Shown here: positions 1-40,072 of the stretch, one piece after another
How the letters are laid out: every line of letters starts with the position of its first letter
Numbering within the stretch: position 1 is the stretch's first letter
From: Methanobacteriota archaeon
Lineage (GTDB): Archaea; Thermoplasmatota; Thermoplasmata; Methanomassiliicoccales; UBA472
Assembly: GCA_021372315.1 (NCBI GenBank)
Contig: JAJFUT010000117.1
Location: 1-40,766, forward strand
Direction of reading: 5' to 3'
DNA: 40,766 bases
Program-made: the position numbers and the translations under genes
Notes under the pieces: generated by a model
The model's database searches: none
What the model was told of the DNA's origin: nothing
Seen by the model: the letters and a program-made list of their open reading frames with translations, nothing else

Positions 1-1100
1 ATCGCCATCTCGATCGGAAGGCCTGCATGGTCCCTGATCACCCTCATCGAAGAGCCAGTGCCGCCCTTGTAGCCGTCTATCGTGATGAAGTCGGCCCCGG
101 CCCTGACGACCCCGGAGGCGATCGCGGCGATGTTGTGGACCGCCGCTATCTTGACGCCGATCGGCTTCTTGTACTCCGTCGCCTCCTTGGTGACGGAGAT
201 CAGCTGCGCCAGGTCCTCGATGCTGTAGATGTCGTGATGCGGGTACGGCGACAATGCGTCCGTTCCCTGCGGTATCATCCTCGTCTCGGAGATGAGGTTC
301 GTGACCTTCTCCCCCGGCAGGTGGCCGCCGTGGCCGGGCTTGGCACCCTGGCCTATCTTGATCTCGACCGCCGCCGCCTTCTTCAGATAATCGGGGTTGA
401 TCCCAAAGCGGCCGGAGGCGATCTCGGTGCAGATGTTGTCCGCGTACTGGTAGAAGTCCGGATGCAGCCCTCCCTCGCCGCTCCCGGCTATGATGTTCAG
501 CTCCTTGGCGGCCATGAAGAACGCCTTCTGCGTGTTGTAGGAGACCGAGCCGAGCGAGACATGCCCTATCATGAGGGGCATGTCCATCACTATGATCGGC
601 CCGTCCCCGCCCTCCAGCCTCATAGTATCTCCTTCGGAGACCCTGATCCTGCCGGGACGCCTGCCCAGCAACGTCTTCGTCTCGACCGGCTCCCTCAGCG
701 GGTCGATCGAAGGGTTGGTGACCTGGGCCGCGTCCAGCAGCAGGTCGTCGAAAATGATCGGGTAATCGCCGTCGGTGCCGCACGACGAGAGCAGCACTCC
801 GCCGCTTCCAGCCTGGGCGTAGATGGCGCGTCTCATCCTCTCGCTCCAGTTGCCGTGCGGAGGGAATTGGCTCGGCATGACGCGGACCTCTATCGAGTTC
901 GCCGGGCAGACGGACATGCATCTGCCGCAGGCGACGCAGCCTCCCGCCGGGACGACCTTCCCGTCCTTGAAGTCGAGCGCCTGGAACGAGCATTCGTTGA
1001 CGCATCTCTTGCAGACGCGGCACGTGCCGTAGTTCACGATCGGAACGAACTTCTCCGGGAGCTTGATGTCCATCTTCCTCGGTCCGGCCTGCTTGTTCAT
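1..1100 (-). CDS. gltB: Archaeal-type glutamate synthase, ferredoxin + FMN (synthase) subunit, 3' part missing
   Basis: Reading leftwards from an ATG at 1100, about 366 codons stay open to the window edge, so the C-terminus is outside. The N-terminus has two ferredoxin [4Fe-4S] motifs (CRVCKRCVNEC and CVACGRCMSVCP, about residues 23-65). The glutamate synthase central/FMN barrel follows: SGEGGLHPDFY, the QGAKPGHGGHLP 2-oxoglutarate/FMN-site motif and the DGYKGGTGS phosphate-binding region. In the family this domain reduces 2-iminoglutarate, formed from 2-oxoglutarate and channelled ammonia, to glutamate in the cytoplasm. The start overlaps the stop of the upstream amidotransferase gene by four bases (ATGA), so the two are surely co-translated. 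The GXGXG domain and any electron-input subunit would lie beyond the left edge. All key motifs are intact, unlike in the paralogue at 30386-31759. Confidence 0.93.
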   Translation of the reverse strand, partial: MNKQAGPRKMDIKLPEKFVPIVNYGTCRVCKRCVNECSFQALDFKDGKVVPAGGCVACGRCMSVCPANSIEVRVMPSQFPPHGNWSERMRRAIYAQAGSGGVLLSSCGTDGDYPIIFDDLLLDAAQVTNPSIDPLREPVETKTLLGRRPGRIRVSEGDTMRLEGGDGPIIVMDMPLMIGHVSLGSVSYNTQKAFFMAAKELNIIAGSGEGGLHPDFYQYADNICTEIASGRFGINPDYLKKAAAVEIKIGQGAKPGHGGHLPGEKVTNLISETRMIPQGTDALSPYPHHDIYSIEDLAQLISVTKEATEYKKPIGVKIAAVHNIAAIASGVVRAGADFITIDGYKGGTGSSMRVIRDHAGLPIEMA

Positions 1101-2389
1101 TGCTTCACCACCTTGAACGGATGCTCGGTGCCGTATCTCAGGATGCCTTTCCCCACCTGAGCGATCATCGGGCTTCCGGCGTTGGTCTGCCAAGTTTCGG
1201 CCGTCTCGTCCACTATCCTGATCGCGCACTCCTCGCTCGCGCAGTATGCCAGTCCTCCGTCCAATGACCTGCCGACGAGCATCGGGCGGAGCTTCTTCCG
1301 GTCCGCCAGCGTTATGAGCGTCGGAACAGGCTGGCTCCTCGCGACCAGGATGCTGAACGGGCCGTTGAGGAACGCCTCCCTGTAAGTGAACCTGAGCCAC
1401 ATGGCCAGCTTCCTGCTATCGGCGTCGAGATGTTCGATCTCGTCATATGTCCACGGGGCCATCGCGAAGGCGGCCGCGGCGATGGGAAGTCCGTGCTTCC
1501 TTACCAGCAGGTCCCACATGTACACGACGACCTCGGTGTCGGTCTTGACGGTGCAGCGGTACCCGGCCATCTCCACGAGCTTCCTGTTGACGCCGTAGGA
1601 GGTGATCTCCCCGTTGTGGCAGACGCTCCAGTCGATCAGCGACAGCGGATGCGCCCCTGCCCACCAGGCCGGAGAGTTGGTCGGGAACCTGGAATGGGAC
1701 GTCCACAGCGTCCCCTTGTATCTTGATATGTCATAGAAATCGGCCATCTCATAGGAGTAGCCGTTCCCCTTGAACACGGCCATGTCCTTCCCGCTCGAGA
1801 TGCACATGGCGCCCTCTATGTTCTCGTTGATGTGCATGACGAGGTCGATCACGAAGTCCTCCTCGTCATGGTATGACCTGCCGTTCAACCCCTTTGCGGT
1901 CCTCGGGCGCACGAAATAGCGCCAGACGATGGGATATGGAGGCCTGAGCGTATTGACGGTCTTCGTGAAGACCCTCTCGTCCTTGACGACCTCCGTCATG
2001 ACGGACAGAAGCTCCTCGACCTTCTGCTTCGCCCCCTCGTCATCGAAGAAGAACTGCATGCAGTAATCGTCCTTGTTCCTAGGGAAGAGGCCATAGCATG
2101 CGTATCCCGAGCCAAGGCCGTTCTCCCTCTCCTCCATGATGGTCAGCATGGAACGGATCCTGTCGCCCGCGACGAGCCGCCCATCCAGCGATATGAGGGC
2201 CGCTATTCCGCAGCCGCCTATCTGGCCATTCAGGCCCTGAGGTCCCTTTGCGAGGTAGGTCCTGCTGTTCCTGGGGAAGTCCCTTAGCTCATCGGACAGA
2301 TCGGGATCGCTGAAATTGTCGTTACGTTCCTGACCCAACGGCGATCGGCCCCCTTTCGAGATGTTCTGAGTGTCCATCGTTCGCAGCAT
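1097..2389 (-). CDS. Glutamate synthase amidotransferase (class II GATase) subunit
   Basis: This 430-residue protein is a stand-alone class II (Ntn-type) glutamine amidotransferase domain of the archaeal split glutamate synthase. The catalytic Cys is probably residue 60 in the GGCGIAAL motif, exposed after removal of a ~59-residue propeptide as in other GltS amidotransferases. Typical binding motifs follow: the SHSRFPTNSPAWWAGAHP region, HNGEI, and a DTEV loop. It would hydrolyse glutamine and pass ammonia to the FMN subunit encoded directly downstream with a four-base overlap. Starts at 2389 (ATG) and 2377 (ATG, MDTQ) are both possible; a GAAGGA sits immediately before the first and about 11 bases before the second, so the sequence does not decide. 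A ~150-base structured leader precedes it. Confidence 0.93.
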   Translation of the reverse strand: MLRTMDTQNISKGGRSPLGQERNDNFSDPDLSDELRDFPRNSRTYLAKGPQGLNGQIGGCGIAALISLDGRLVAGDRIRSMLTIMEERENGLGSGYACYGLFPRNKDDYCMQFFFDDEGAKQKVEELLSVMTEVVKDERVFTKTVNTLRPPYPIVWRYFVRPRTAKGLNGRSYHDEEDFVIDLVMHINENIEGAMCISSGKDMAVFKGNGYSYEMADFYDISRYKGTLWTSHSRFPTNSPAWWAGAHPLSLIDWSVCHNGEITSYGVNRKLVEMAGYRCTVKTDTEVVVYMWDLLVRKHGLPIAAAAFAMAPWTYDEIEHLDADSRKLAMWLRFTYREAFLNGPFSILVARSQPVPTLITLADRKKLRPMLVGRSLDGGLAYCASEECAIRIVDETAETWQTNAGSPMIAQVGKGILRYGTEHPFKVVKQ

Positions 2390-12380: not shown

Positions 12381-12653
12381 ATGGTTTTCGATCTAGCTCC
12401 AATATTGTTCATGGCGTTCGCCGGCCTCACGGTCGCCGCCGCCATATGCATCCTCGTGACCAAGGAGATCGTCAGGAGCGCAGTGTTCTTCGCCGCCGCT
12501 TTGATCGGCATAGCGATAACGTACATGTTCCTGAACTCGGAGTTCATCTCGCTCATCCAGATCCTGGTATACGTGGGCGCGATCAACGTGCTGATACTGT
12601 TCGGTATCATGCTTACCAAACGCAAGCTGATGGGAGGTGGGCCCTGTGAGTAA
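12381..12653 (+). CDS. fpoJ: Fpo/Nuo-like complex subunit J, N-terminal half
   Basis: This 90-residue membrane protein has three helices. It contains the conserved subunit J segment FISLIQILVYVGAINVLILFGIML, which in complex I includes the pi-bulge helix, and starts with the typical KEIVRSAVFFAAALIGIAITYMFL. It covers only the first half of a bacterial NuoJ. The C-terminal half is encoded by the next gene, which starts eight bases before this stop. Confidence 0.9.
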   Translation: MVFDLAPILFMAFAGLTVAAAICILVTKEIVRSAVFFAAALIGIAITYMFLNSEFISLIQILVYVGAINVLILFGIMLTKRKLMGGGPCE

Positions 12654-12915: not shown

Positions 12916-13229
12916 TGGACACCACATCGATACCTATCAACTGGTTCCTGATGCTCTCCACCGCGCTGTTCGTGGTCGGCGTAGCTGGCGTGCTGATCAA
13001 GAAGAACGCGATCATCATACTGATGTCGATCGAGCTCATGCTGAACGCGGCCAACATCAACCTGGTGGCATTCTCGGTATACAACAACGATGCCTCCGGA
13101 CAGGTAATGGCCCTGGTCTCGATCGGACTGGCGGCGGCCGAGGTAGCTCTCGGGCTCGCGATACTGCTGAACCTCAACAAGCTGAGGGACACCGTCAATG
13201 TTGACGACCTATCGATCCTGAGGTGGTAA
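12915..13229 (+). CDS. fpoK: Fpo/Nuo-like complex subunit K
   Basis: This 104-residue protein has three membrane helices typical of the NuoK/MrpC family. The conserved segment IILMSIELMLNAANINLVAFS carries the buried Glu, and the second conserved Glu is in LAAAEVALGLAILL. Both lie on the hydrophilic axis of the proton path. The ATG at 12915 overlaps the previous stop (TGATG). A GTG three bases upstream is possible but less likely. Confidence 0.94.
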   Translation: MDTTSIPINWFLMLSTALFVVGVAGVLIKKNAIIILMSIELMLNAANINLVAFSVYNNDASGQVMALVSIGLAAAEVALGLAILLNLNKLRDTVNVDDLSILRW

Positions 13230-13230
13230 G

Positions 13231-15297: not shown

Positions 15298-15304
15298 GGT
15301 GATC

Positions 15305-16867: not shown

Positions 16868-16868
16868 G

Positions 16869-18326
16869 ATGGTAGACTATACTGCAATAACGCCAGAGAT
16901 CGTTCTGGCCCTGTTCGCCCTCGCAGTGCCCGCCCTGGGCATGGTGATGAGGTCGTCGAAGGTCCTCGCGGCCTTCTCGCTCGTCGGCGTGGCGCTGACG
17001 GGACTGAGCGTTTGGATGATCACCGACGGATACTCCGGGCCGGTCGCCTTCCAGGACTTCGTGGTCGTCGAGGAGTTCTCGCTCCTGTTCATGTACATCT
17101 TCCTGGCGGTGGCGTTCTATGTCATACTCGCCTCGGCCGTATACGTAAAGGACGACAAGCACAAGCCCGAGTACTACTCGCTCATCCTCATGGCCACCGT
17201 CGGCATGCTGTTCGTGGCATCCGCCTCCGACCTGTTCGCGCTGTTCGTCGGCATCGAGCTGACGAGCATGTCCTCGTACGCCCTGGTCGCCTTCAAGAAG
17301 AAGGACGTCAAGAGCGCGGAGGCGGCGACCAAGTACCTGATCATCGGCGGTCTGTCGAGCGGGTTCTCACTGTTCGGCATTTCGCTCATGTACGGTTTCA
17401 CGGGGACGACCTCGTTCAGCGGCATCAACGATTACCTCAGCACGCTGGGCGCGGAGAACATCGAGATGGTCTGGCTAGCGATGATCATGATCGTCGTGGG
17501 CTTCGGCTTCAAGATATCGATGGTGCCGTTCCATATGTGGGCGCCAGATGTGTACGAGGGTGCGCCGACGCCGATCACTGCCATGCTTGCCGCAGGCAGC
17601 AAGAAGATGGGTTTCGTCGCGATGTTCAAGTTCTTCCTGATAGGCCTGATCGCGATCAAGGCGGACTGGCAGCTGCTCATGGCGGTCATGGCGGTCGTCA
17701 CGATGACGGCCGGCAACCTGATCGCCCTGAACCAGACGAGCATGAAGCGCATGCTCGCCTATTCGAGCATCGCCCAGGCGGGATACATCCTGATGGTCAT
17801 ACCTGTAGCGACCGACTACGCCCTCGCAGGGGGTCTGTTCCAGATCCTCACGCACGCGTTCATGAAGGGAGGCGCGTTCATCATCGTCGCAACTCTCGCG
17901 GTCGCCGCCGTCGGGGACAAGATCTCCGACTACAAGGGATTGGCCAAGAGGACGCCGTTCCTCGCCATCGCGATGACGCTTTTCATGCTGTCCCTTGCAG
18001 GCATACCGCCTCTGGCGGGGTTCGCATCGAAGTTCTTCCTCTTCTCCGCGCCGATCGAAGCGATGGGAGGCGGGAACGACTGGCTCATGTGGCTGGCCGT
18101 TGCGGGTATCCTCAACAGCGCCCTGTCCCTCTTCTATTACGTGCGCGTCATAAAGTACATGCTAGTGGAGAAGGGGGAGACCGAGGAGAAGCTCAAGCTG
18201 CCGATGAGCATGATGGCCGCGGTCGCGATATGCCTCGTGGCAGTGATCGTCATGGGCGTCTACCCGGAGCCGTTCTACCAGGCATGCCTTGACGCCGCAA
18301 AGAGCTTCTTCACGTTCCTAGCGTGA
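16869..18326 (+). CDS. fpoN: Fpo/Nuo-like complex subunit N (antiporter-like)
   Basis: This 485-residue protein is the last gene of the operon and has about 14 membrane helices. Motifs include FVGIELTSMSSYALVAF with the conserved Glu, FKISMVPFHMWAPDVYEGAPTPITAMLAAGSKKMGF with channel Lys residues, MLAYSSIAQAGYILM, and LAGIPPLAGFASKFFLF. GGGAGG precedes the ATG. No subunit O or F gene follows; the next gene is geranylgeranyl-diphosphate synthase after a T-rich terminator candidate. Confidence 0.96.
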   Translation: MVDYTAITPEIVLALFALAVPALGMVMRSSKVLAAFSLVGVALTGLSVWMITDGYSGPVAFQDFVVVEEFSLLFMYIFLAVAFYVILASAVYVKDDKHKPEYYSLILMATVGMLFVASASDLFALFVGIELTSMSSYALVAFKKKDVKSAEAATKYLIIGGLSSGFSLFGISLMYGFTGTTSFSGINDYLSTLGAENIEMVWLAMIMIVVGFGFKISMVPFHMWAPDVYEGAPTPITAMLAAGSKKMGFVAMFKFFLIGLIAIKADWQLLMAVMAVVTMTAGNLIALNQTSMKRMLAYSSIAQAGYILMVIPVATDYALAGGLFQILTHAFMKGGAFIIVATLAVAAVGDKISDYKGLAKRTPFLAIAMTLFMLSLAGIPPLAGFASKFFLFSAPIEAMGGGNDWLMWLAVAGILNSALSLFYYVRVIKYMLVEKGETEEKLKLPMSMMAAVAICLVAVIVMGVYPEPFYQACLDAAKSFFTFLA

Positions 18327-28425: not shown

Positions 28426-30393
28426 ATGGAATCTAGCGCTCAGGGGTGCACATCGGTCGAGGCCGGCGCACAGCAGTTCGATGCCAAGGAAGAGCCCAAA
28501 ACAGGTCTGGCCGTGGACATCGGTGCACAAGGGATACCGGGGCTCCGCGTCGTCTCCGGGAAGGGCGAGATGATGCTCTTCTCAAGGGACCAATCGGACA
28601 TACCCCAGTTGCTCAAGGACATGCTTCTCAACTACAGGCCGGACGCGGTCGTCCAGCCATCCACGGCCGAGGCCATCGTCGCCATTCTGGGTTACGCCGA
28701 GAGGCGGGACCTGAAGGTCGTACCGCGCGGCATCTCGTCCTCGCCGTTCGGCGGGGCGGTGCCAGTCGACGGAGGGATCGTGATCGACCTCAGTTCGATG
28801 AACGGGATCATCAACGTCGACCCTTCGCAAAAACGAGCCACGGTCCTCGCAGGGGCCAGATGGAGCGACATCGACCATGAGCTCGGCAAATCAGGGCTGA
28901 GGCTCATCACATCGCCATCGAGCAAGTTCTCGACGGTCGGAGGATGGATCGCAGGAGGGGGCATCGGCATAGGCTCTCTCGGCGGTGGGCATCTGAGCGA
29001 GAACGTTCTGACGGTCAAGGTCGCCAATCCGAAGGGTGTAAGGACGTACGTCAAGGGGGAGGAGGACTTCCGCCGCCTGTTCGGGAGCGAGGGGCAGCTC
29101 GGCGTCATCGTCGAAGCTACCATGATGGTCAAGACGAAGGACCCCAGCTCGAAGCCTCACCTCATCGTCCTGCAGGAACTGAAGGACGCGATCGACCTGG
29201 CCATCTCACTAAAACGCCTCGACCCCATACCCGAGGACCTCATCTACTTCAGCCCGAACAAGATGGCCTACAGCAACGACCTGCTTCATCTGGACATACT
29301 TCCCCAGGGGCACGCTCTCCTCGTCACGTCATCGAACGAGGCGTCCGAGAAGGCCATCGTCTCCTTGATGGCATCGAAGGGCGTGACCGAGGCGGGGGAG
29401 CATCTCGCAAGGCTCCTGTCGCACGACAGGTACTTCCCGATGAAGCTCAGGAGGATCGGGCCAGGGATGCTCGGCGCGGAGGTATTGACGCCGACGGCGA
29501 AGCTCGAAGACATGCTGGCGAAGGCCGAGGAACTGTGCGAGGCGTTCGCCCTCGACCCCCTTTTGGAGGTTCATTTCCTCCAGGGGAAGGACTCCCTCAT
29601 GCTCTGTTACTATCCGACCGACCAGGGGAATCAGATGCTGTACGCCCTCGACGCCGTCAAGTCCATGATCGTGACGGCCTCGCTGGTCGACATGGGCGCT
29701 AGGCCCTATTCCCTGGGCATATGGAACAACTCCTTCGTGGACTCGCTTCCCGAGGAGGAGATGACGGGCATGTCCCGATCGAAGAAGAGGATGGACCCGA
29801 GCCAGATGTTCAACTCGGGGAAGTACTTCAAGCTCAAGGGCAGGACGTTCGGCATCCCATCGATGCTCTTGACCCCGATGGTCGCCGGAAACGGGCTGAA
29901 GATCATGTCTTCGATGTCCAGCACGCTCTCTCCGTTCCTCAGGGCCGCAACGGCGGTCGCGAAGAGGACGATGGGACCGAAGAGCAGGGACCCGCTCAAG
30001 GAACTGGCCGACCAGTGTGCAATGTGCGGCGCCTGCGTCGCCGTATGCCCGGCGTACAACCTGATCGGCGACGAGAGGGTCACCGCCAGAGGCAAGCTCG
30101 TCACTGCAAGGACGCTGATCGACGGCGGCAAGATATCGGAGGAGCACGCGCAGAGGACGTTCCTATGCATGAGATGCAAGGCCTGCGAACAGGTCTGCCA
30201 GTCGAAGCTCGGACTGATGGACGCCTATGACGACCTTGAATCGCGGCTCGAGAAGCGTTACAAGAGGGACGCCAAGGAGATCGAGGCGTTCGTCAAGTTC
30301 GCGGAGTCATCGGACATCTACGAGGAGCTGATCGACAAGGGTCTGGTGCTTGGTTCACCCAAGAACGGCATGGGAGGTGAGCGCGATGTATGA
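28426..30393 (+). CDS. FAD-linked hydroxyacid-oxidase-type Fe-S flavoprotein
   Basis: This 655-residue protein has the GlcD/D-lactate-dehydrogenase layout. An FAD-binding type 4 domain occupies about residues 65-230 (RPDAVVQPSTAEAIVAIL; PRGISSSPFGGAVPVDGGIVIDLS; STVGGWIAGGGIGIGSLGGG; LFGSEGQLGVIVEATM), followed by an FAD-oxidase C-terminal substrate domain to about 460. Two [4Fe-4S] motifs close the protein: CAMCGACVAVCP (about 531) and CMRCKACEQVCQ (about 581). The last motif has Gln where Pro is usual. No CCG (heterodisulfide-reductase-like) domain follows, unlike many GlcF-type fusions. GGGAGGT precedes the ATG at 28426. It overlaps the next gene by eight bases. The likely role is electron input from a 2-hydroxyacid, or exchange with a soluble carrier, into the GltS-like subunits downstream; substrate is unknown. 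Confidence 0.88.
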   Translation: MESSAQGCTSVEAGAQQFDAKEEPKTGLAVDIGAQGIPGLRVVSGKGEMMLFSRDQSDIPQLLKDMLLNYRPDAVVQPSTAEAIVAILGYAERRDLKVVPRGISSSPFGGAVPVDGGIVIDLSSMNGIINVDPSQKRATVLAGARWSDIDHELGKSGLRLITSPSSKFSTVGGWIAGGGIGIGSLGGGHLSENVLTVKVANPKGVRTYVKGEEDFRRLFGSEGQLGVIVEATMMVKTKDPSSKPHLIVLQELKDAIDLAISLKRLDPIPEDLIYFSPNKMAYSNDLLHLDILPQGHALLVTSSNEASEKAIVSLMASKGVTEAGEHLARLLSHDRYFPMKLRRIGPGMLGAEVLTPTAKLEDMLAKAEELCEAFALDPLLEVHFLQGKDSLMLCYYPTDQGNQMLYALDAVKSMIVTASLVDMGARPYSLGIWNNSFVDSLPEEEMTGMSRSKKRMDPSQMFNSGKYFKLKGRTFGIPSMLLTPMVAGNGLKIMSSMSSTLSPFLRAATAVAKRTMGPKSRDPLKELADQCAMCGACVAVCPAYNLIGDERVTARGKLVTARTLIDGGKISEEHAQRTFLCMRCKACEQVCQSKLGLMDAYDDLESRLEKRYKRDAKEIEAFVKFAESSDIYEELIDKGLVLGSPKNGMGGERDV

Positions 30394-31759
30394 GCGGTAT
30401 CATATTCATCAGGAGGTGACGGCGCCCAGGTTCAGGCCCGTCCCCAAGTTCATCATACAGAGGGCAGGTAACTGCATCAACTGCGGGAAGTGCGAGAGGA
30501 ACTGCGTCTACGGCGTTCATATGAGGAGGGATGACGACCCGAGGCGCATGGCGGATCCGTTGAGCCAGTTCTGCAAGGACTGCTTCAGATGCATCGCCGG
30601 CTGTCCTCAGAGGGCGCTCACGATCTCCGTCGGCGCCGAGTTCACATCGCTTGGAAGCGGGGGCTGGACCCCCCAGAGGGTCACGACCGTCTGGAACGAG
30701 TCAGAGACTGGCAAGGTCCCTGTGTTCGGCGCCGGATACCGCGGGATGTTCTCCGGGCCCGGATACGATGCCATGTGGACCGACATGTCCGAGATCGTCC
30801 GGCCCACCAGGGACGGCATCCACGGCAGGGAGCACATATCGACGAACGTGCTGATCTGCAGGAACCCTCCATTCCTGGAGTTCGGGCCGAAAGGGGAGCT
30901 GCTGACGCCCATGGCCGAGAGCATAGACCTCCCTGTCCCGTTCGTGTTCGACCTGGCCGCACTGAAGGAGAGCACCAAGGGGATCATGCAGGGCCTGGAC
31001 CAGGCCGCCAAGGAGCTCCATACGCTCCTTATGGTCCCTGTGGACAAGGTCGAAGCCTATGGAATGGACCTTTCGTCGGGCAGGGTAGTGCCGATCGTAG
31101 GCGATGATGCGGGGAACGAGGTCAGCAAGATGCCCGAGCAGGTCCGGTTCATCGAGCTCTCCGACGCCAATCGGCTGAAGGAGAGGGTCAAGGCGGTCCG
31201 CGCGGCGAGGGGCGGCATGATCGTCGGGACCAGGGTCAAGGCCGACGCGGAGCTGGAATCCCGCCTCGTGGACATCGCCTGCGAGGCCGATGTCATCCAC
31301 GTACTGTTCGATGAGGAGGGCAGGGAGTCCGGCGGAAGGTATGCCAGGGACGCGCTGCGCTCCTATCACAAGGTTCTCGTGAAGGCGGGCATCAGGGACG
31401 AGGTCACGATCATCGCCGGAGGCGGCATAGCCGCGGCGGAGCAGGTGCCGAAGAGCATCATCTGCGGCACGGACGTCGTGTCGCTCGATGACGCGCTCAT
31501 GGTGTCGCTCGGATGCCGCATGTGCCACTCGTGCAAGGGCGAGTGCCCGGCCGACCTGGCCAACGCCCCGTCCGAGTACGTCAAGGGAAGGGTCGTCAAC
31601 ATGGCCAACGCCTGGAGGGACCAGCTCCTGGAGGTGCTGGGCGCCATGGGCATAAAGGAGGTCCGCCGCCTGCGCGGCGAGACCGGCAGGGCGATATTCC
31701 AGGAGGACGCCGAGCGAGATTCTTTCGCAGGCATCTTCAGAGGTGATGTCATTGGTTGA
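30386..31759 (+). CDS. Degenerate GltB-like ferredoxin/TIM-barrel protein
   Basis: This 457-residue protein has SD GGGAGGTGAG before the ATG at 30386. The N-terminus has two [4Fe-4S] motifs: CINCGKCERNC (30-40) and CKDCFRCIAGCP (63-74). The remainder aligns in layout with the glutamate synthase FMN barrel of the next gene, from the WxxxxVxTVWNxSETGKVP segment to VTIIAGGGIAAAEQVPKSIICGTDVVSLDDALMVSLGC, and ends with a Cys cluster CRMCHSCKGEC. However, the GAKPGxGG 2-oxoglutarate/FMN motif and the DGGxGGTG phosphate loop are absent. FDEEGRESGGRYARDA stands at the place of the latter. It therefore probably lacks glutamate synthase activity and serves as a structural electron-relay subunit of a complex with its neighbours. 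It overlaps both neighbours (8 and 14 bases). Confidence 0.85.
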   Translation: MYERYHIHQEVTAPRFRPVPKFIIQRAGNCINCGKCERNCVYGVHMRRDDDPRRMADPLSQFCKDCFRCIAGCPQRALTISVGAEFTSLGSGGWTPQRVTTVWNESETGKVPVFGAGYRGMFSGPGYDAMWTDMSEIVRPTRDGIHGREHISTNVLICRNPPFLEFGPKGELLTPMAESIDLPVPFVFDLAALKESTKGIMQGLDQAAKELHTLLMVPVDKVEAYGMDLSSGRVVPIVGDDAGNEVSKMPEQVRFIELSDANRLKERVKAVRAARGGMIVGTRVKADAELESRLVDIACEADVIHVLFDEEGRESGGRYARDALRSYHKVLVKAGIRDEVTIIAGGGIAAAEQVPKSIICGTDVVSLDDALMVSLGCRMCHSCKGECPADLANAPSEYVKGRVVNMANAWRDQLLEVLGAMGIKEVRRLRGETGRAIFQEDAERDSFAGIFRGDVIG

Positions 31760-33248
31760 GAGCAAGGAGAAATGCGTACCAGAGGCATCGTGGGTGCCTG
31801 CGGAGCGCCTCAAGATGATCAACAGGTACGTCGTGGAGAGGAAGGGATCGTGCATATCGTGCGGCCTGTGCGGGTCGCTGTGCCCTTACGGTGTGCACAA
31901 GCGCATCGAGGGGCATGCATCGATACTGCCGCCCTTCGACCAGAGATGCATCGGGCCCAGTTGCTCCTCGAACGACTTCTATTGCGTGAAGCGCTGCCCG
32001 ACGAGCTCGCTGTCCGTCAGTAACAGCGAGACGTTCCCCGCGCTGGGGGACGTTAGGTGGACCTCCGAGATGGTCCTGGGGACGTGGAAGATGGCGGAGA
32101 CGGGGAAGGCGTTGCCGCTCGACCACCCCGCCAACGTCGGCGCCTGCGGAGGCGGGTTCGACCAGCTTCACTTCAGACTGCCGAAAGGCAGCAAGCCAGT
32201 CAAGGACCATGAGTTCACGACGGCCATCGATCTCAACAGGCGGAGCAGGGGGCCAAGGGTCAAGATCGACCTGCCGATATACGGAGGAGGGATGTCCTAC
32301 GGGTCCGTAAGCCTGCACACGATGGTGGCCAAGGCCAGGTGCGCGCAGGCCTGGAACACGTTCACCTGCACCGGCGAGGGAGGATACCCTTCGGAGCTAT
32401 TGCCCTACCAGAAGCACGTCATAACGCAGGTCGCAACGGGCCTGTTCGGGGTCAAGGAGGAGAGCATCAAGAGGGCCCCGATCGTCGAGTTCAAGTACGC
32501 CCAGGGAGCCAAGCCAGGGCTCGGAGGCCATCTTCTTTACGAGAAGAACACCCCGCTCGTCGCGAAGATGAGGCAGGCCGTGCCGTACACGTCGCTGTTC
32601 TCCCCGTTCCCGTTCCACAGCGTCTATTCGGTCGAGGACCACAAGAAGCACCTTGACTGGATATCTTCGATCAATCCGAACGCCCTGCTATCGGTCAAGG
32701 TGTCCACGCCCAACGACGTCGAGATGGTGGCCGTGGGTTCCTACTTCGCCGGGGCCAACATAGTGCACCTGGACGGCGGATATGGCGGGACCGGCGCCGC
32801 GCCCGAGATCGCCAAGAAGAACATCGCCACCCCGATCGAGTACGCGATCCCGAAGGTGCACCGGTTCCTCACCAACGAAGGGATCAGGGACGAGGTGACG
32901 CTGATCGCTAGCGGCGGAGTGCGCACCGGGCTGGACATGGCCAAGGCGATCGCCCTAGGGGCCGACGGCGTCGTCATAGGCACCGCCGAGCTCGTGGCCA
33001 TGGGCTGCGTCCGCTGCGGCAACTGCGAGAGCGGCCGCGGATGCCCTCGCGGCATAGCTACGACAGACCCGGAGCTGATGATGCAGCTGGAGACCGATTG
33101 GGCCGCGCAGCGCCTGATCAATCTCTATGGCGCCTGGAGGCAGCAGCTCGGCGACCTGATGTCCCGCTTCGGGATGAAGGACGTGTCCGAGCTGAGGGGC
33201 CGCACGGACCTGCTCCGTTTCGACGGAGGGAAGGAGGTGAAGGCATGA
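31746..33248 (+). CDS. GltB-like glutamate synthase FMN subunit with N-terminal ferredoxin
   Basis: The protein has about 500 residues. Its N-terminus carries CISCGLCGSLCPYGVH, and a second, irregular Cys set CIGPSC...YCVKRCP replaces an ordinary ferredoxin motif. The complete synthase barrel follows: LPIYGGGMSYGSVS, TGEGGYPSELLPY, AQGAKPGLGGHLL, DGGYGGTGAAPEI, and LIASGGVRTGLDMAKAIALGADGVVIGTAEL. It closes with GCVRCGNCESGRGCPRGI, where glutamate synthases hold a 3Fe-4S cluster. It should bind FMN and 2-oxoglutarate. The ATG at 31746 sits inside the GAGGTGATG ribosome-binding sequence; a TTG at 31752 has better spacing and may be the true start. It overlaps both neighbours by 3-14 bases. Confidence 0.92.
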   Translation: MSLVESKEKCVPEASWVPAERLKMINRYVVERKGSCISCGLCGSLCPYGVHKRIEGHASILPPFDQRCIGPSCSSNDFYCVKRCPTSSLSVSNSETFPALGDVRWTSEMVLGTWKMAETGKALPLDHPANVGACGGGFDQLHFRLPKGSKPVKDHEFTTAIDLNRRSRGPRVKIDLPIYGGGMSYGSVSLHTMVAKARCAQAWNTFTCTGEGGYPSELLPYQKHVITQVATGLFGVKEESIKRAPIVEFKYAQGAKPGLGGHLLYEKNTPLVAKMRQAVPYTSLFSPFPFHSVYSVEDHKKHLDWISSINPNALLSVKVSTPNDVEMVAVGSYFAGANIVHLDGGYGGTGAAPEIAKKNIATPIEYAIPKVHRFLTNEGIRDEVTLIASGGVRTGLDMAKAIALGADGVVIGTAELVAMGCVRCGNCESGRGCPRGIATTDPELMMQLETDWAAQRLINLYGAWRQQLGDLMSRFGMKDVSELRGRTDLLRFDGGKEVKA

Positions 33249-35857
33249 GCAACGCGCGAGAACTGATGAAGGGAAGGGAATGGATGTCGAAGCTGGACGT
33301 CCCTACCTTCGATCGCCAGATGGAAGCGGAGGGCGGGTGCGGCGTCGTAGGGCTGGCCAGCACGATGGCCTTGCCCGGAAGGCACTTCTTCGAGTCCCTC
33401 AGGCAGATGCATAACCGCGGCAACGGCAAGGGCGGCGGCATAGCGGCGGTCGGGTTGTCCCCTGAGCAGATGAAGGTGTCGAAGGACGTGCTCGAGAACG
33501 ACTACCTGGTCCAGATAGCCTATATCGACTCGAGCGTCAGGAAGGAGCTGGAGGACAGGGTCCTCGCCAACTACGACGTCCACGCCACCTACATGGTCGA
33601 CGAGAGCGACGACCCCGCGGTCCTCGCGGACCTCCCGGTCCGTCCGCCGCAGGTCTGGCGCTACTTCTGCCGCGCCAAGAGGGACGTCATGGCGAAGTTC
33701 GTCGAGGAGAGGAAGCTCGGTTCGCTCGACGCGCGGAGGGCGGAGGACGAGTTCGTCTACCAGACGAACTTCGGGATCAACCTCGACTACTATGCCTCTG
33801 GCAAGATGAAGGCCTTCGTCATGTCCCAGGGAAGGAACATGATCATCATGAAGGTCGTCGGATACGCCGAGGACGTCATACGGTTCTACCGCATGGAGGA
33901 CTTCACGGCCCATGTCTGGATAGGCCATCAGCGCTATCCGACCAAGGGACGGGTATGGCATCCGGGCGGGGCGCATCCGTTCATGGGCCTGGACGAGGGC
34001 CTCGTGCACAACGGGGACTTCGCCAACTACCATTCGGTCAGCGAGTACCTGGCCCAGCGCAACATACGGACCCTGTTCCTGACCGACACCGAGGTCTCGG
34101 TCCTGCTGTTCGACCTCATGAACCGCGGTTACGGTTATCCGCTCGAGTACATCATCGAGGCCCTCGCCCCGACGACGGAGAGGGACTTCAACGAGCTGCC
34201 GGCCGAGAAGCAGAAGATATACCAGGCGATCCAGAGGGCGCATGTGCACAGCTCACCGGACGGGCCGTGGTTCTTCATCATCGCCCAGAACTGCTATTAC
34301 GAGAACAAGCAGAAGCTCATCGGCATCACCGACACGGCCATGTTGAGGCCCCAGGTGTTCGCCCTCGTCGAGGGGGACGTGCAGATCGGATTGGTCGCAT
34401 CAGAGAAGCAGGCGATCGACGCCGCACTTAGATCGATCAACGCAGACCACCCCGAGGTGCCTCGCCAGGCCGACGTATACTGGAACGCCAGGGGCGGAAG
34501 CCATACGGACGGCGGGGCGTTCGTGTTCAGCCTGGAGGACGAGAAGGGATCGAAGCGCCTGAAATGTTCGAACAAGTTCGGGGCGCCCGTCACGATCGAC
34601 CTCAAGTACGACAGGAAGGAGGACGCCAAGCTGTCGGCCCCGCTGCCGATCGCCAGCGTGACCTCGGACCACAACATCCACGCGATGGACGGCGACAAGG
34701 CCTTCGAGACGTTCCTCAAGGACGTGGGGACGATGGACCACGCGAAGGTCCAGGCGGTCTTCGCCGAAGCGGTCAGGCGCGGCAAGAACGGGGGGAAGGA
34801 CCTGGACGAGATGCTCAGGTTCCTCGACCTGGTCATCGACCGCCGGTACGATGCCGGCCGCGTTAGGAGGAGCAGGCTGACCGAGAAGTCCCTGGAGGCC
34901 GTCAACGCGATCTTCCGCTCGATGCCGCGCGTCGAAGGGGCGCAGGCGAACGGCGCCGCGCTGGTCGACTGGAAGGACCACGAGCTCCTGAAGGCCCCGA
35001 CGAAGCCGGGCTCCAAGCTCCTGGTGGATTGCAGGGGATTCCCGATGGAGGGGGAACTCGGCCCATCCTTCGTGATCAGAAGGGCGTACGAGCTGGGATG
35101 GCGGCACGTCATCATGTTCGATGCCCATGGCCAGAGGTTCTTCGGATGCGGGCTCGGACCCGGCACCGAGGGGATGAGGATCGAGGCCTACGGCAATCCA
35201 GGGGACTATCTGGCCTCGGGCATGTCAGGCGCCGAGATCGTCATACACGGCAACGCGCAGGACCAGCTCGGGCAGGTCATGGCGTCCGGGAAGCTCGTCG
35301 TCCACGGGGACGTCGGGCAGACGTTCATGTACGGGGCGAAGGGCGGGGACGCCTACATCATGGGCAATGCAGCCGGAAGGCCGCTCATCAACGCGGTCGG
35401 CAGGCCGAGGGTCATCATCAACGGCACCTGCCTCGACTACCTGGCAGAATCGTTCATGGCCGGGGACCCGCTCAACGGCGGAGGGTTCGTCATCCTCAAC
35501 GGCGTAGGCTTCAGCGCGGACGGAAGGCCGTTCGAGCTCCAGACGCCCTACCCGGGCAGCAACCTGTTCTCGCTGGCATCAGGCGGTGCGATATACATCC
35601 GCGATCCCGGCCACAGGGTGACGCCGGACCAGATCAACGGAGGCCGCATCGGCTCGTTCGGCAAGGCGGACTGGGACCTGATCCGTCCCTATCTGGAGGA
35701 GAACGAGAGGCTGTTCGGCATATCGGTCGAGGACTTCCTCCTTAAGGTCGACGGCAGGACCATCGCCCCCGAATCGGTCTATCGCAAGATCGAGGCGGTC
35801 CCGGTAAGATCGGCCAAGAAGGAAGCTGAGCTAGACGATGACGAGGCCAGCGCGTAA
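33245..35857 (+). CDS. Glutamine amidotransferase + GXGXG fusion (glutamate-synthase-type)
   Basis: This 870-residue protein starts at the ATG at 33245, overlapping the previous stop by four bases (ATGA) with GGAGGTGA upstream. A class II amidotransferase domain spans about residues 32-410, with probable nucleophile Cys32 in GGCGVVGLAS. WIGHQRYPTKGRVWHPGGAHPF and HNGDF follow, and a TDTEVS loop. A linker of about 170 residues leads to a GXGXG beta-helix domain at about 590-790 (repeats such as GAEIVIHGNAQDQLGQVM, GKLVVHGDVGQTFMYGAKGG, GDAYIMGNAAGRP). In bacterial GltB both domains flank the FMN domain in one chain. Here they are joined directly and the FMN domain is the previous gene, a circularly rearranged split. 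The ammonia tunnel would run between the two polypeptides. Confidence 0.92.
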   Translation: MSNARELMKGREWMSKLDVPTFDRQMEAEGGCGVVGLASTMALPGRHFFESLRQMHNRGNGKGGGIAAVGLSPEQMKVSKDVLENDYLVQIAYIDSSVRKELEDRVLANYDVHATYMVDESDDPAVLADLPVRPPQVWRYFCRAKRDVMAKFVEERKLGSLDARRAEDEFVYQTNFGINLDYYASGKMKAFVMSQGRNMIIMKVVGYAEDVIRFYRMEDFTAHVWIGHQRYPTKGRVWHPGGAHPFMGLDEGLVHNGDFANYHSVSEYLAQRNIRTLFLTDTEVSVLLFDLMNRGYGYPLEYIIEALAPTTERDFNELPAEKQKIYQAIQRAHVHSSPDGPWFFIIAQNCYYENKQKLIGITDTAMLRPQVFALVEGDVQIGLVASEKQAIDAALRSINADHPEVPRQADVYWNARGGSHTDGGAFVFSLEDEKGSKRLKCSNKFGAPVTIDLKYDRKEDAKLSAPLPIASVTSDHNIHAMDGDKAFETFLKDVGTMDHAKVQAVFAEAVRRGKNGGKDLDEMLRFLDLVIDRRYDAGRVRRSRLTEKSLEAVNAIFRSMPRVEGAQANGAALVDWKDHELLKAPTKPGSKLLVDCRGFPMEGELGPSFVIRRAYELGWRHVIMFDAHGQRFFGCGLGPGTEGMRIEAYGNPGDYLASGMSGAEIVIHGNAQDQLGQVMASGKLVVHGDVGQTFMYGAKGGDAYIMGNAAGRPLINAVGRPRVIINGTCLDYLAESFMAGDPLNGGGFVILNGVGFSADGRPFELQTPYPGSNLFSLASGGAIYIRDPGHRVTPDQINGGRIGSFGKADWDLIRPYLEENERLFGISVEDFLLKVDGRTIAPESVYRKIEAVPVRSAKKEAELDDDEASA

Positions 35858-35923: not shown

Positions 35924-36811
35924 TCAGCCACCCTTCGCCCTCTCGGCTGCCGTCACGGTGTTCACCATGAGAATGATCCTCGTCATGATGCCTACGCCTC
36001 CAGGCACCGGCGTTATCGCGGAGGCCTTCTTGCTCACTGCCTCGAAGTCCACGTCGCCTACCAGCCTGTAGCCTTTAGGCGAGGTGTCGTCCGCGACCCG
36101 GTTCATGCCGACGTCGATGACGACGGCCCCCTCCTTCACCATGTCAGCCTTGATGAAGTTCGGCGCGCCCATCGCGACGATGAGGATGTCCGCCTGACGT
36201 GTGATCGACGGCATGTCCCTCGTCCTCGAATGGCAGACCGTGACCGTCGCGTCCGCGCACTTCCCCTTCTGCATGAGCAGCGCGGCCATAGGCTTCCCGA
36301 CGATGTTGCTGCGCCCGCAGATGACGACATGGCGCCCGGAGGTCTCGATGCCGTGCCTTTCCATGAGGACCTGTATGCCGTGCGGCGTGCAGGGAAGGAA
36401 CCCATCGGTCTCGCCTATGAGCATCTTACCGACGTTCACGGGGTGGAAACCGTCCACGTCCTTCTCCGGGCTGATCCTCATGATGACCTTCCGAGGGTCG
36501 ATGTGCTTCGGGACAGGCATCTGGACGAGCAGTCCGTGGATCAGCTTGTCGGCGTTGAGCTCGTCGATGAGCCCGAGCAGCTTCGCCTCGGAAGTGTCCG
36601 CTGGAAGCCTGATCGTCTTTGAGCGCATGCCGAGGTCGATGCACTCCTTCTCCTTCATCCTGACGTAGACGGCGGAGCCGGGGTCGTCGCCGACCATTAT
36701 GACCGCGAGACCTGGCCTGACGCCCTTCTTCGAAAGGTCCGATATCCTTTCCCTGAGATCCTTCCTAATCGCCTCGGCCACGGCGTTGCCTTCGATCAGC
36801 TTGGCGGTCAT
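35924..36811 (-). CDS. folD: Methylenetetrahydrofolate dehydrogenase / methenyl-THF cyclohydrolase
   Basis: This 295-residue bifunctional enzyme starts at the ATG at 36811 (MTAKLIEGNAVAEAIRKDL); a longer frame to 36895 reaches into the promoter region. Motifs are VGDDPGSAVYVRMKEKECIDLG with the Tyr and catalytic Lys, QMPVPKHIDPRKVIMRISPEKDVDGFHPVNVGKM, CTPHGIQVLM, VICGRSNIVGKPMAALLM for NAD(P) binding, and PVPGGVGIMTRIILMVNTVTAAE. It interconverts methylene-, methenyl- and formyl-tetrahydrofolate. It stands divergently next to fhs, the other enzyme of the same branch. A minus-strand TATA-like GTTTAAGATAA lies at 36844-36854. No Shine-Dalgarno is visible. Confidence 0.97.
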   Translation of the reverse strand: MTAKLIEGNAVAEAIRKDLRERISDLSKKGVRPGLAVIMVGDDPGSAVYVRMKEKECIDLGMRSKTIRLPADTSEAKLLGLIDELNADKLIHGLLVQMPVPKHIDPRKVIMRISPEKDVDGFHPVNVGKMLIGETDGFLPCTPHGIQVLMERHGIETSGRHVVICGRSNIVGKPMAALLMQKGKCADATVTVCHSRTRDMPSITRQADILIVAMGAPNFIKADMVKEGAVVIDVGMNRVADDTSPKGYRLVGDVDFEAVSKKASAITPVPGGVGIMTRIILMVNTVTAAERAKGG

Positions 36812-36947
36812 GTGAATCGTACCGCTGAGAAAATGCAGATGGATTATCTTAAACTTCCTGAAGGGGGCCTCTCTCGCCCTGAACATGCTGGACATGATGG
36901 GGTTTTAATAACCGGAATATTATTCGATGCTCCAAGTGAGCACGACC
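36812..36947. promoter_or_regulatory. Divergent promoter region of folD and fhs
   Basis: The 136-base gap has TATA-like elements in both directions: TTATCTTAAAC (36844-36854, for folD) and TTTTAATA (36903-36910, for fhs). They lie about 50 bases apart, so the two genes may be co-regulated. Confidence 0.5.
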
Positions 36948-38621
36948 ATGAGGACCAACATCGAGATCGCTCAGGACGCCAAGGCACGCCCCATCGGCGA
37001 CATCGCAGAGAAGATCGGGATCGAGGAGACGGAACTGGTCCCCTATGGAAGGTACATCGCGAAGGTCCCGCTCGACGTCCTGAAGAGGTTCGATTCACGC
37101 CCGGCCGGCAAGCTCGTTCTCATGACGGCGATAACGCCTACGCCCGCCGGAGAGGGAAAGACCGTCACGACCATCGGCCTCGTCCAAGCGCTGGGGAGGA
37201 TGGACAAGAAGGTCATGGGGGCGATACGCGAACCTTCTCTCGGCCCCGTGTTCGGCCTGAAGGGCGGCGCCACGGGCGGAGGCTTCTCGCAGGTCTATCC
37301 CATGTGGGACATAGACCTTCATTTCACCGGCGACATCCACGCGGTCGCGGCGGCGCACAACCTGCTGTCCGCCATCCTCGAAAATCACATCTCGAGGGAC
37401 AACTCGCTCGGCATAGACCCGACGCGCATCATGATCAAGAAGGCGATGGACATGAACTGCCGCGAGCTGCGGCACATCGTCGTCGGTCTCGGGGGCAGGA
37501 ACGACGGGGGGACGCCGCACGAATCGGCCTTCATCATCACCGCCGCGTCCGAGATAAGCGCCGTGCTGGCCCTGGCCACGTCCATGGCCGACCTCAAGCA
37601 GCGTCTCGGCAAGATCATCGTCGCTTACAGCTACAAGGGGAAACCGGTCTTCGCGTCCCAGCTGGGATGCGTCGGCGCCATGACGATGCTCCTGAAGGAC
37701 GCCATCTGCCCCAATCTCGTCCAGACGCTGGAGGGGGACCCGTTCTTCATACACGGCTTCCCCTTCGCAAACATCGCTCACGGCAACAGCTCCCTCCTGG
37801 CGACTAAGTACGCTCTCAAGCTCGCCGACATCGTCGTCACCGAGGCGGGGTTCGCCGCCGACCTGGGCGCCGAGAAGTTCTTCGACATAGTCTGCAGGGG
37901 GAAGGAGGTCAGGCCGGACTGCGCGGTGGTCGTCTGCTCGATCAGGGCGCTCAAGATGCACGGGGGCGCGTCGATCGACCAGATCTGCAAGGGCGACTGT
38001 CTCGCGCTCAGGAAGGGCCTCGAGAACCTCGACAAGCACGTGGAGAACAGTCGCAAGTTCGGCGTCCCGATCGTCGTGGCGATCAACTTCTTCGACACCG
38101 ACACGACCGAGGAGATCGAGCTTGTCAAGAAGCATTGCAGGGAGAAGGGCATCAGGTGCGCCGTGTCCCGGGTCTTCGCGGAGGGGGGCAAGGGAGGAAG
38201 GGAGCTGGCCGAGGTCGTCCTGGAGTCTCTGGAGAACGATCGCTGCGATTTCAGGTTCCTTTACGCGTCCGATCGCCCGCTGAAGGAGAAGATCAAGACC
38301 ATCGCCACCGAGATCTACGGGGCATCGGAGGTCATCTACGAGGGAGAGGCCGAGCGCAACCTGAAGCTCATAGAGACGTCGGGGTTCGGCGACCTGCCGA
38401 TATGCATGGCCAAGACCCAGCTGTCGATAACCGACAACCCGAAGCTCAAGGGCGCCCCGAAAGGCTGGACCCTCAAGATCAGGGAGATACACGTCTCCGC
38501 CGGAGCTGGATTCGTCGTTCCGATCTGCGGGCAGATAATGCTCGTACCGGGACTGCCGTCGGAGCCGGCCGCTCTCAAGATGGACATAGACGAGAACGGG
38601 AAGATCACCGGGTTGAACTAG
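36948..38621 (+). CDS. fhs: Formate-tetrahydrofolate ligase
   Basis: This 557-residue enzyme starts at the ATG at 36948; an ATG at 36927 would add seven residues but is too close to the TATA element. The length equals that of bacterial formyl-THF synthetases. The P-loop region TPTPAGEGKTVTTIGLVQALG lies at about residues 58-78. FGLKGGATGGGFSQVYPM follows, then MDMNCRELRHIVVGLGG, and the C-terminal GDLPICMAKTQLSITDNPKLKGAP and GAGFVVPICGQIMLVPGLP. It activates formate with ATP to give 10-formyl-THF, feeding purines and, with FolD, methylene-THF. The gene is of a type common in bacteria and sporadic in archaea. Codon use looks like its neighbours. Its TAG stop overlaps the DUF3786 gene tail by 17 bases. 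Confidence 0.97.
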   Translation: MRTNIEIAQDAKARPIGDIAEKIGIEETELVPYGRYIAKVPLDVLKRFDSRPAGKLVLMTAITPTPAGEGKTVTTIGLVQALGRMDKKVMGAIREPSLGPVFGLKGGATGGGFSQVYPMWDIDLHFTGDIHAVAAAHNLLSAILENHISRDNSLGIDPTRIMIKKAMDMNCRELRHIVVGLGGRNDGGTPHESAFIITAASEISAVLALATSMADLKQRLGKIIVAYSYKGKPVFASQLGCVGAMTMLLKDAICPNLVQTLEGDPFFIHGFPFANIAHGNSSLLATKYALKLADIVVTEAGFAADLGAEKFFDIVCRGKEVRPDCAVVVCSIRALKMHGGASIDQICKGDCLALRKGLENLDKHVENSRKFGVPIVVAINFFDTDTTEEIELVKKHCREKGIRCAVSRVFAEGGKGGRELAEVVLESLENDRCDFRFLYASDRPLKEKIKTIATEIYGASEVIYEGEAERNLKLIETSGFGDLPICMAKTQLSITDNPKLKGAPKGWTLKIREIHVSAGAGFVVPICGQIMLVPGLPSEPAALKMDIDENGKITGLN

Positions 38622-39234
38622 ACGACCTGAGCAGGGCCGAGAGAACGGCCGAGCCTACCTCGGAGTAGTCCTCCGTCGGCAGGATCGACCTGGCGCCGGG
38701 CGAGAACAGCATCGTCGCGTTGCCAGGCACCTCGTCGTCCCCTTGCCATACGGTCACGCGGACGTGCAACTTCGGAAGGAATGGAAGGACGATCGTCGCT
38801 GATCCGAACGTCTCTGTGCGGCCTTTCAGCTTAAGTCCGGAATCGATCAGTTCGTTCGGCCTCGACGAGAACCTTTCGGCGATGGCCTCCACGACCCTCT
38901 TTTGGAACGCCGACTGGAACGCCTCGCCCCCCGGCAGCTGCCTGAACAGGAGCCAGTCTCCCTTCGGAACGACCTCGTTATCGATGCACCCTTTCAGATA
39001 GTGAAGGATGACGATGTCGAGGAGGACGTCCTTCTCCGGGATGGACGTTACGATGCTCCGCTTCTTGAGATCGACGACCAGCATGTCGTCCAGCATCTTC
39101 AACGACAGCGTGTCCTCCTTGACCGTCCCACCGCTTCTCGCCGCCATCGTCGTTAGTTCGGGGGAACCGAGCATGTCCCATGCCCTTGTCAGGGAAGGGA
39201 AATAGCACGACCTTCGAGAAGCATCGTTCGACAT
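38605..39234 (-). CDS. DUF3786 family protein
   Basis: This 209-residue protein starts at the ATG at 39234, directly after the stop of the deacetylase gene (TGACATG) and preceded by GGGAGTGA. DUF3786 features are ILHYLKGCIDNEVVPKGDWLLFRQLPGGEAFQSAFQKR in the middle and VTVWQGDDEVPGNATMLFSPGARSILPTEDYSEVGSAVLSALL at the end. Relatives occur mainly in anaerobes, including acetogens and methanogens, often near corrinoid or C1 genes; function is unknown. Here it is translationally linked to a polysaccharide deacetylase and converges on fhs. Confidence 0.85.
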   Translation of the reverse strand: MSNDASRRSCYFPSLTRAWDMLGSPELTTMAARSGGTVKEDTLSLKMLDDMLVVDLKKRSIVTSIPEKDVLLDIVILHYLKGCIDNEVVPKGDWLLFRQLPGGEAFQSAFQKRVVEAIAERFSSRPNELIDSGLKLKGRTETFGSATIVLPFLPKLHVRVTVWQGDDEVPGNATMLFSPGARSILPTEDYSEVGSAVLSALLRSSSSTR

Positions 39235-39235
39235 G

Positions 39236-40072
39236 TCACTCCCGAACGCCGTTATCGGCCAGGTGATCATCTATCCTGACGAGCTCGATGCCCATGTCCA
39301 ATCCTTTCGACAGTAGTCCGTGCAGGAGGTCCTTCTGCCTCCTCGCCTCCTCCTTCGAATAGAGGCCGGTACCGAAGTTCTCGATCATGTGCCAGGTGTG
39401 CGTCGCGATGACCATCAGCCCTTCATCGGCCTGCCCCATCAGATGAACGTAATCGTCCACCGTCCGCTTGCCCTCGTGCATCGGCCAGAGGTACCCGACG
39501 ATCTTCTTGCCCCTTGGATCGATGCCTGAGGCGACGGGAACCTCGATGATGCCCGAGGGCGTCCTGTATGGCCAGATCGGCCCGTCCTGGAGCGATCGCA
39601 CCTTCGAGGAGTCGTAGATGAACCCCTTTTCGAAAAGGGCCTCCTCGATATCGCCGTCGCAAGCCTGGTACGGCGCCCTGAACCCGAACCTCATTCCCCC
39701 GAAGATCTCGCGCAGGACGGACATCGACCTCTCAAGGACGTCATCGACCTCGGCTCTGCTGAGCGGCATACCGCTCTTATGCCCCGTGAGGTCCTCGTGG
39801 TCGTATCCGTGGCACGCGATCTCGTGCCCCTTCATCAATGACGGAAGGTCGACCGTCCTCGATATCGCCAGGGCGGTCCTGGCCTCGAAGAAGAAAGTGC
39901 CCTTGACGTCCAGCGATTCCAGCACGCCGACTATCGTCTCCAGCCCCTTCGCCGAGGATGCGAAGCGAGGCGCGTCGCTGCCGTCCCTCGGGGCGGACAC
40001 GGCGCAGACCTGACCTTCGCACGCCTGATTGACATCGCGGTCGACGTCGACGGTGAACGAGCACTGGCGCAT
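39236..40072 (-). CDS. Polysaccharide deacetylase (NodB-like)
   Basis: This 278-residue protein has a NodB homology domain. FTVDVDRDVN near the N-terminus carries the catalytic Asp and metal Asp, HEIACHGYDHED the metal-binding His pair, FRAPYQACD the substrate-site Arg, and ATHTWHM the late catalytic His. There is no signal peptide or membrane helix, so it acts inside the cell. Likely substrates are N-acetylated sugars or related amides, such as precursors of a surface glycan or lipid. The TATA element at 40091-40099 is about 23 bases before the ATG, indicating a leaderless message. Confidence 0.92.
   Translation of the reverse strand: MRQCSFTVDVDRDVNQACEGQVCAVSAPRDGSDAPRFASSAKGLETIVGVLESLDVKGTFFFEARTALAISRTVDLPSLMKGHEIACHGYDHEDLTGHKSGMPLSRAEVDDVLERSMSVLREIFGGMRFGFRAPYQACDGDIEEALFEKGFIYDSSKVRSLQDGPIWPYRTPSGIIEVPVASGIDPRGKKIVGYLWPMHEGKRTVDDYVHLMGQADEGLMVIATHTWHMIENFGTGLYSKEEARRQKDLLHGLLSKGLDMGIELVRIDDHLADNGVRE

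Follow-up and report, generated by a model that had tools for sequence, protein, structure and literature searches.

Introduction

Glutamate synthase (GltS) is the main high-affinity route by which nitrogen enters organic matter. To our knowledge the donor subunits so far assigned to it are GltD, ferredoxin and F420 proteins, the last of these by prediction. N-methylglutamate synthase (MgsABC) has split amidotransferase (GATase), GXGXG and FMN subunits encoded in a methylamine operon. In the bacterial NADPH-dependent enzyme a linear Fe-S relay carries electrons to FMN from a distinct flavin subunit, and whether the GltB central domain arose by barrel duplication or independently has been described as open (PMC8097209). 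Putative F420-dependent enzymes, FGltS(I) and FGltS(II) of methanogens and an FrhB10-linked ANME type, have also been described (PMC3448663, PMC9012536). Replacement of GltD by another flavin subunit is, as these predicted F420-dependent forms illustrate, a known kind of change.

Here a block of four genes, A-B-C-D, is described from an archaeon of the order Methanomassiliicoccales, in which an FAD_4/GlcD-type protein is the candidate partner of glutamate synthase subunits. No description of such a partner was found in a literature search that covered few subscription journals. The window, that is the whole stretch of 40,766 nt that was analysed, is an entire contig of a 1.75-Mb host genome. 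Genomes, loci, contigs and taxonomic families are cited below by our own numbers, f1 being the family of the window.

Results

Organization of the four-gene block

The four genes lie on the forward strand. Gene A (28426..30393) encodes a GlcD/LctD-like flavoprotein of 655 aa with an FAD_binding_4 domain of the VAO/PCMH type (Pfam, 1.8e-32) and two C-terminal [4Fe-4S] motifs (Fer4_8, 1e-9). Gene B (30386..31759) encodes a paralogue of C that has a dicluster ferredoxin domain (Fer4) and the intact motif 'MSEIVRPTRDGIHGRE', and matches Glu_synthase weakly (3.2e-13); by alignment, the FMN/2-oxoacid segment of its barrel is gone. The predicted catalytic FMN subunit is the product of gene C (31746..33248), with an N-terminal dicluster ferredoxin domain (Fer4), a strong Glu_synthase match (5.9e-90) and a Cys4 motif after the barrel. 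Gene D (33245..35857, with an ATG start at 33245) encodes a fusion of a class II glutamine amidotransferase (GATase_6) to a C-terminal GXGXG domain, the latter above the Pfam cut-off at 7.7e-12, and is the putative ammonia-donating subunit. Consecutive genes overlap by 8 (A/B), 14 (B/C) and 4 (C/D) bases, and sites resembling the ribosome binding sequence GGAGGTG precede B, C and D. NCBIfam holds no equivalog for any of the four proteins, the matches falling far under the curated cut-offs, and the FrhB/FdhB family was absent from their domain matches in both Pfam and NCBIfam. Predicted structures, made from three-sequence alignments, were poor, with a mean pLDDT of 60.2 for A and 41.6 for B.

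The residues expected of the two catalytic subunits are conserved. The glutaminase residues of D (Cys32, Arg230, Asn256-Gly257 and Asp281) are invariant in 17 orthologues. C aligns to the FMN domains of GltB (7mfm, 1ea0 and 2vdc) and has His at the position of the substrate-site Gln, as does the archaeal form. The Lys of its KPG motif and a downstream Arg in an MR motif, also invariant in 17 orthologues, are presumably the 2-oxoglutarate-site residues of GltS structures. Near the substrate site, C reads 'PFHSVYSVEDH' where the conventional archaeal subunit reads 'PHHDIYSIEDL', a change that could mean a different 2-oxoacid substrate.

These results bear out an earlier sequence-only reading in its description of four overlapping genes, since the reading frames are found at the positions and on the strand that it gave and Pfam agrees on the domains; its assignment of the first gene to the lactate/glycolate oxidase type likewise holds, as a GlcD/LctD-type FAD subunit in the same operon. 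Its remark that no GltD is seen is correct for the window, in which no GltD gene was found, whether in the block, beside it or elsewhere, but the genome does encode an NfnA/NfnB pair of the GltD family on another contig. Its claim of a rearranged domain order stands for the GATase-GXGXG fusion and fails for the separate FMN subunit, which is ordinary for archaea. What is unusual about the block is that fusion and the duplicated barrel.

The genes adjoining the block in the window are a divergent pair for FolD (- strand) and formate-tetrahydrofolate ligase (+ strand), at 35924-38621 directly downstream; no such pair was seen beside the block in relatives. Further along, at 38605-40072 (- strand), a DUF3786 protein adjoins a polysaccharide deacetylase-like protein. 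The interval 7996-18326 (+ strand) holds an Fpo/Nuo-like complex I cluster, with polyprenyl synthetase and geranylgeranyl-reductase-like genes after it.

A conventional glutamate synthase in the same genome

The block is a second system, since a conventional split archaeal glutamate synthase lies at the left end of the window. Its amidotransferase subunit (1097..2389, - strand) is encoded by an open reading frame whose product is 75% identical to a stand-alone copy in genome G156. Its FMN and ferredoxin subunit (3..1098, - strand, ending at about 1098; Glu_synthase, 9.7e-82) is cut by the contig end, and the remainder, together with the GXGXG gene, is found on contig C79, at an end that shares 141 identical bases with the window. 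An Lrp/AsnC-like regulator gene adjoins this conventional GXGXG gene (L003, 132-575).

At least one of the two systems, the block and the conventional enzyme, was present in all 22 genomes of family f1. Three of these (G070, G388 and G496), each 99% complete, have the block without the conventional enzyme, and in 15 genomes of families f6, f23 and f25 no Glu_synthase system other than the block was found. Glutamine synthetase is present. Glutamate dehydrogenase (GDH) occurs in most f1 genomes, so that the genomes with the block alone are suggestive, and not proof, of the block as a source of glutamate.

Conservation of the block and its A-less relatives

Relatives were sought in 200 genomes of the class Thermoplasmata and, in depth, within the phylum of the window. 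Long homologues of D scoring above 700 bits occurred in 25 of the 200 genomes, the window not counted. In every locus uncut by a contig end (24 of 24, from several families) the genes are collinear as A-B-C-D, which argues against a chance association. Among genome contigs scanned, the only named relatives were Methanomassiliicoccaceae archaeon UBA472 and Euryarchaeota archaeon RBG_13_57_23, and a search of a plasmid collection returned distant relatives only. In a tree of C, the proteins from the block group in a single clade (support 99/98) that is separate from the glutamate synthases of archaea and bacteria.

With B as the query across the phylum, more distant homologues were recovered in families f54, f35 and f55, and 17 loci that were examined carry B-C-D without A. 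The expectation that all four genes always occur together was therefore confirmed for the 24 complete loci and not for these 17; the absence of the oxidase gene from orthologous loci, which had been named as grounds for rejecting the sequence-only reading, does arise among the relatives and not in the block of the window. A is missing from the entire genome in 19 of 20 A-less members, and in the twentieth (G236) nothing but a distant fusion of the GlcD-HdrD type, on another contig, was found. Two loci (L060 and L127) were left out of the A-less set; they seem to lack A only because each contig stops upstream of B or C, and they keep the ferredoxin cysteines. A-less B-C-D loci of f54 and f35 are represented by L096-L111, in which B has a single [4Fe-4S] ligand set.

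Joint presence and absence of A and the B and C ferredoxin domains

The strongest evidence of the analysis is the distribution of cysteines in loci with and without A. All eight ferredoxin cysteines of B and all eight of C are present in each of the 24 loci with A, and the cysteines of the Fe-S motif after the FMN barrel of C (421, 424, 427 and 433) occur in all A-bearing loci. The ferredoxin domain of C is missing from each of the 17 A-less loci, and in 16 of them B keeps cysteines 40, 63, 66 and 69 and has lost 30, 33, 36 and 73; in the seventeenth (L095, from G236) the cysteine set of B is lost. From the topology of dicluster ferredoxins, we take residues 30, 33, 36 and 73 to be the ligands of one cluster and residues 40, 63, 66 and 69 those of the other. 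In the tree of C the A-less loci nest beside A-bearing loci, a placement that suggests a joint loss of A and the ferredoxin domains.

These patterns suggest that A forms a single module with the ferredoxin domains of B and C, for which an electron-input chain is the simplest interpretation. Their joint occurrence makes A the probable electron-input subunit, and the earlier proposal that the oxidase is the input side of the complex gains support as a likely one. The input side as a whole appears to be a swappable module, consisting of A with the ferredoxin domains in the block, stripped in loci without A, accompanied by NfnAB in f6 and by EtfBA in G236.

B and C as a duplicated barrel

Profile comparison identified B and C as full-length paralogues (match 100%, E = 1.7e-50, 407 columns). 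In alignments with the conventional subunit, C keeps the catalytic segment (TGEGG...KPG...R) and has lost the motif 'TNPxIDPxRE', and B has done the reverse, keeping the motif as 'IVRPTRDGIHGRE' and losing the catalytic segment. In GltB, this motif is located in the central domain. As judged from these alignments, B and C split the ancestral FMN subunit between them, the catalytic segment going to C and the 'central-domain' motif to B.

In profile searches, B matched the GltB central domain at 80.8% (E = 1.3e-5), C at 4.3% and the FMN domain of GltB itself at 4.8%. The match of B to the FMN domain was closer still (97.9%). A 45-sequence profile matched the central domain at 68.6%, and a profile of the A-less B proteins alone at 7.4%. 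The B-half of a fused B-C homologue in G236 scored 36.1 bits against PF04898, for which the cut-off is 22.8. B is likely, on these profiles, the counterpart of the GltB central domain. It would then bear on the origin of that domain, being a barrel copy in which the central-domain motif was retained and the active site lost.

Relationship of A to known flavoproteins

By profile, the best solved relative of A is LctD (7qh2_C, 1.3e-37, profile positions 75-476), followed by AGPS and the D-lactate and glycolate dehydrogenases. Foldseek listed AGPS and D-lactate dehydrogenases for the model of A, which confirms the FAD fold family only. Among 16 orthologues, the cysteines of both cluster motifs are invariant (531/534/537/541, CxxCxxCxxxCP; 581/584/587/591, CxxCxxCxxxC), as are R335, the arginine of a WxxR motif, and H383. 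The metal-site motifs HxGDGNxH, of which the second histidine is gone, and SGEHG were found in none of the 16; the corresponding places read E-x-H-x(n) and (R/K)PYSxGxW. The FAD-oxidase_C match of A, at 20.8 bits, lies just under the Pfam cut-off of 21.2. The GlcD-HdrD-type fusion of G236, which resembles A more closely, also has neither metal-site motif. Because these motifs are lost in 16 of 16 orthologues, metal-assisted oxidation of a 2-hydroxyacid by A is unlikely, and A is probably not running the classical form of this reaction.

LctD belongs to a complex with an electron-transferring flavoprotein (ETF), and this type of partner was considered for A. An ETF domain was found in none of the 22 genomes of family f1, with 10 of 14 control genomes positive, which rules out LctBCD-like ETF coupling in that family; ETF was accordingly rejected as the partner of A there. 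The flavin-based bifurcation step that had been suggested for the complex is thus unsupported in its ETF type for the family of the window.

Gene neighbourhoods in relatives

At each of the five loci examined from genus g2 of family f1, proA-proB lie directly downstream of D, and in three of the five an aminotransferase gene lies upstream of the block. Conserved genes for proteins of 241 aa and 183 aa, neither with a match in Pfam, are found between D and proA-proB in this genus (L039, 14820-16134, and relatives).

In family f6, adjacency of NfnA-NfnB was examined by direct tblastn, loci with downstream sequence being testable. NfnA-NfnB were found downstream of D and on the same strand in 13 of 13 such loci, one of them with a 2.5-kb insertion; an example is L041 (14431-16761). 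The NfnB of these loci belongs to the GltD family (TIGR01316, 603.6 bits; cut-off 471.75), so a gltD partner near the block, another finding named beforehand as counting against the sequence-only reading, exists in f6 and not in the window. In f6, NAD(P)H or ferredoxin acting through this GltD-like protein could be the donor. NfnAB is not adjacent to the block in the family of the window, and in f1 genome G388, which is 99% complete, A-B-C-D is present with neither the conventional enzyme nor any GltD-family protein; the block is therefore not necessarily dependent on Nfn. An MttB-family (trimethylamine methyltransferase-like) gene lies about 2.4 kb upstream in seven f6 loci (L041, 2900-4333, and relatives).

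At the A-less locus L095 of G236 (1128-8310), B and C are fused into a protein of 840 aa with the domain order of bacterial GltB, central-like and then FMN. It is followed in a row by D, EtfB and EtfA with a ferredoxin domain, and an AsnC-type regulator gene lies divergently upstream. This system is possibly an ETF-linked glutamate synthase.

Discussion

We favour, with modest confidence, the view that the block encodes a variant glutamate synthase with A as its input subunit and with B and C as a duplicated, subfunctionalised barrel. From the evidence above we infer that the four products form a complex, that electrons run from A towards C and that glutamate is the product. The amidotransferase half of D would free ammonia from glutamine, the GXGXG half would help to connect the amidotransferase to the synthase part, and the FMN barrel of C would join the ammonia to 2-oxoglutarate and reduce the product to glutamate. 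As a duplicate of C without an active site, B would be a structural partner resembling the central domain and would take part in the Fe-S relay. Electrons would pass from the FAD of A through its clusters to the ferredoxin domains of B and C, then to the cluster beside FMN and finally to FMN itself. In a bolder version of this model, which we put forward only tentatively, the VAO-type FAD subunit of the glutamate synthase would oxidise a donor not recognised before, or in f6 electrons would bifurcate between A and NfnAB, and the duplicated barrel of B and C would preserve a step midway in the evolution of the GltB central domain.

The source of the electrons might lie elsewhere. B-C-D could be fed by ferredoxin or by an NAD(P)H module of the NfnAB type, with A as a second redox port serving as an exit or a bifurcation partner. 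The NfnA-NfnB genes directly downstream of the block at all 13 testable f6 loci and the NfnAB of the window's own genome are consistent with this arrangement, and the A-less homologues evidently work without A. However, G388 has the whole block and no GltD-family protein, none was found in the nine A-less genomes of f54 and f35 that were checked, and the distribution of the B and C ferredoxin domains follows that of A and not that of Nfn; we consider this arrangement rather unlikely. That A drives the amination by oxidising a 2-hydroxyacid (lactate, glycolate or 2-hydroxyglutarate, for example), as first suggested, is distinctly improbable. In its favour, LctD and the D-lactate and glycolate dehydrogenases are the closest solved proteins to A, and neither R335 nor H383 varies. 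Against it, every orthologue has lost both SGEHG and the second His of HxGDGNxH, FAD-oxidase_C falls short of its cut-off and no hydroxyacid gene was seen adjoining the block; the suggestion is not supported.

The product and direction of the reaction can be questioned in the same way. The residues changed near the substrate site of C, together with the coexistence of the block and the conventional enzyme in many f1 genomes, would suit an amidotransferase-linked reductive aminase that converts some other 2-oxoacid to an amino acid other than glutamate. Retention of the Lys and Arg equivalents of the 2-oxoglutarate site, the proA-proB neighbours and the standing of the block as the sole Glu_synthase system found in the 15 genomes of f6, f23 and f25 all argue for glutamate instead, and make a different product very doubtful. 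The half-reactions are in principle chemically reversible, and the sequence-only reading had allowed that the complex might run backwards, oxidising glutamate and releasing electrons through A. The glutaminase residues, which a glutamate oxidase would not need, are conserved in 17 orthologues; proA-proB beside the block in five relatives point to biosynthesis that consumes glutamate; and GDH is already present. With the glutaminase intact and these neighbours in place, reverse operation is highly improbable.

The variant glutamate synthase that we favour can be compared with several known systems. The split archaeal glutamate synthase has the same catalytic domains, its FMN subunit carries an N-terminal dicluster ferredoxin domain, and B and C each align with that subunit over their length; it differs in having one FMN subunit, separate genes for GATase and GXGXG, and no FAD_4 subunit. 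The bacterial NADPH-dependent enzyme (GltB and GltD; 1ea0, 2vdc, 6s6x and 7mfm) shares the glutaminase, the FMN barrel and GXGXG, and its central domain is possibly the equivalent of B, whereas the block has a VAO-fold FAD_4 protein in place of GltD, a rearrangement of domains over B, C and D, and extra ferredoxin domains. NfnAB, a ferredoxin:NADP oxidoreductase with a GltD-like NfnB, adjoins the block in f6 and is missing from some genomes that carry the block. LctD, from the electron-confurcating LctBCD complex (7qh2), and GlcD belong to the same fold family as A; in A the metal-site motifs are lost and two C-terminal [4Fe-4S] clusters are fused to the flavoprotein, and EtfAB is absent from the family of the window. 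The block also resembles the putative FGltS enzymes, which pair a glutamate synthase subunit with a flavin and Fe-S donor subunit other than GltD. Their donor subunits are FrhB-, FdhB- or FpoF-like, whereas A is FAD_4/GlcD-like and has no such domain; the block would illustrate a swap of power source in a central nitrogen-assimilating enzyme in a group of methanogen-related archaea.
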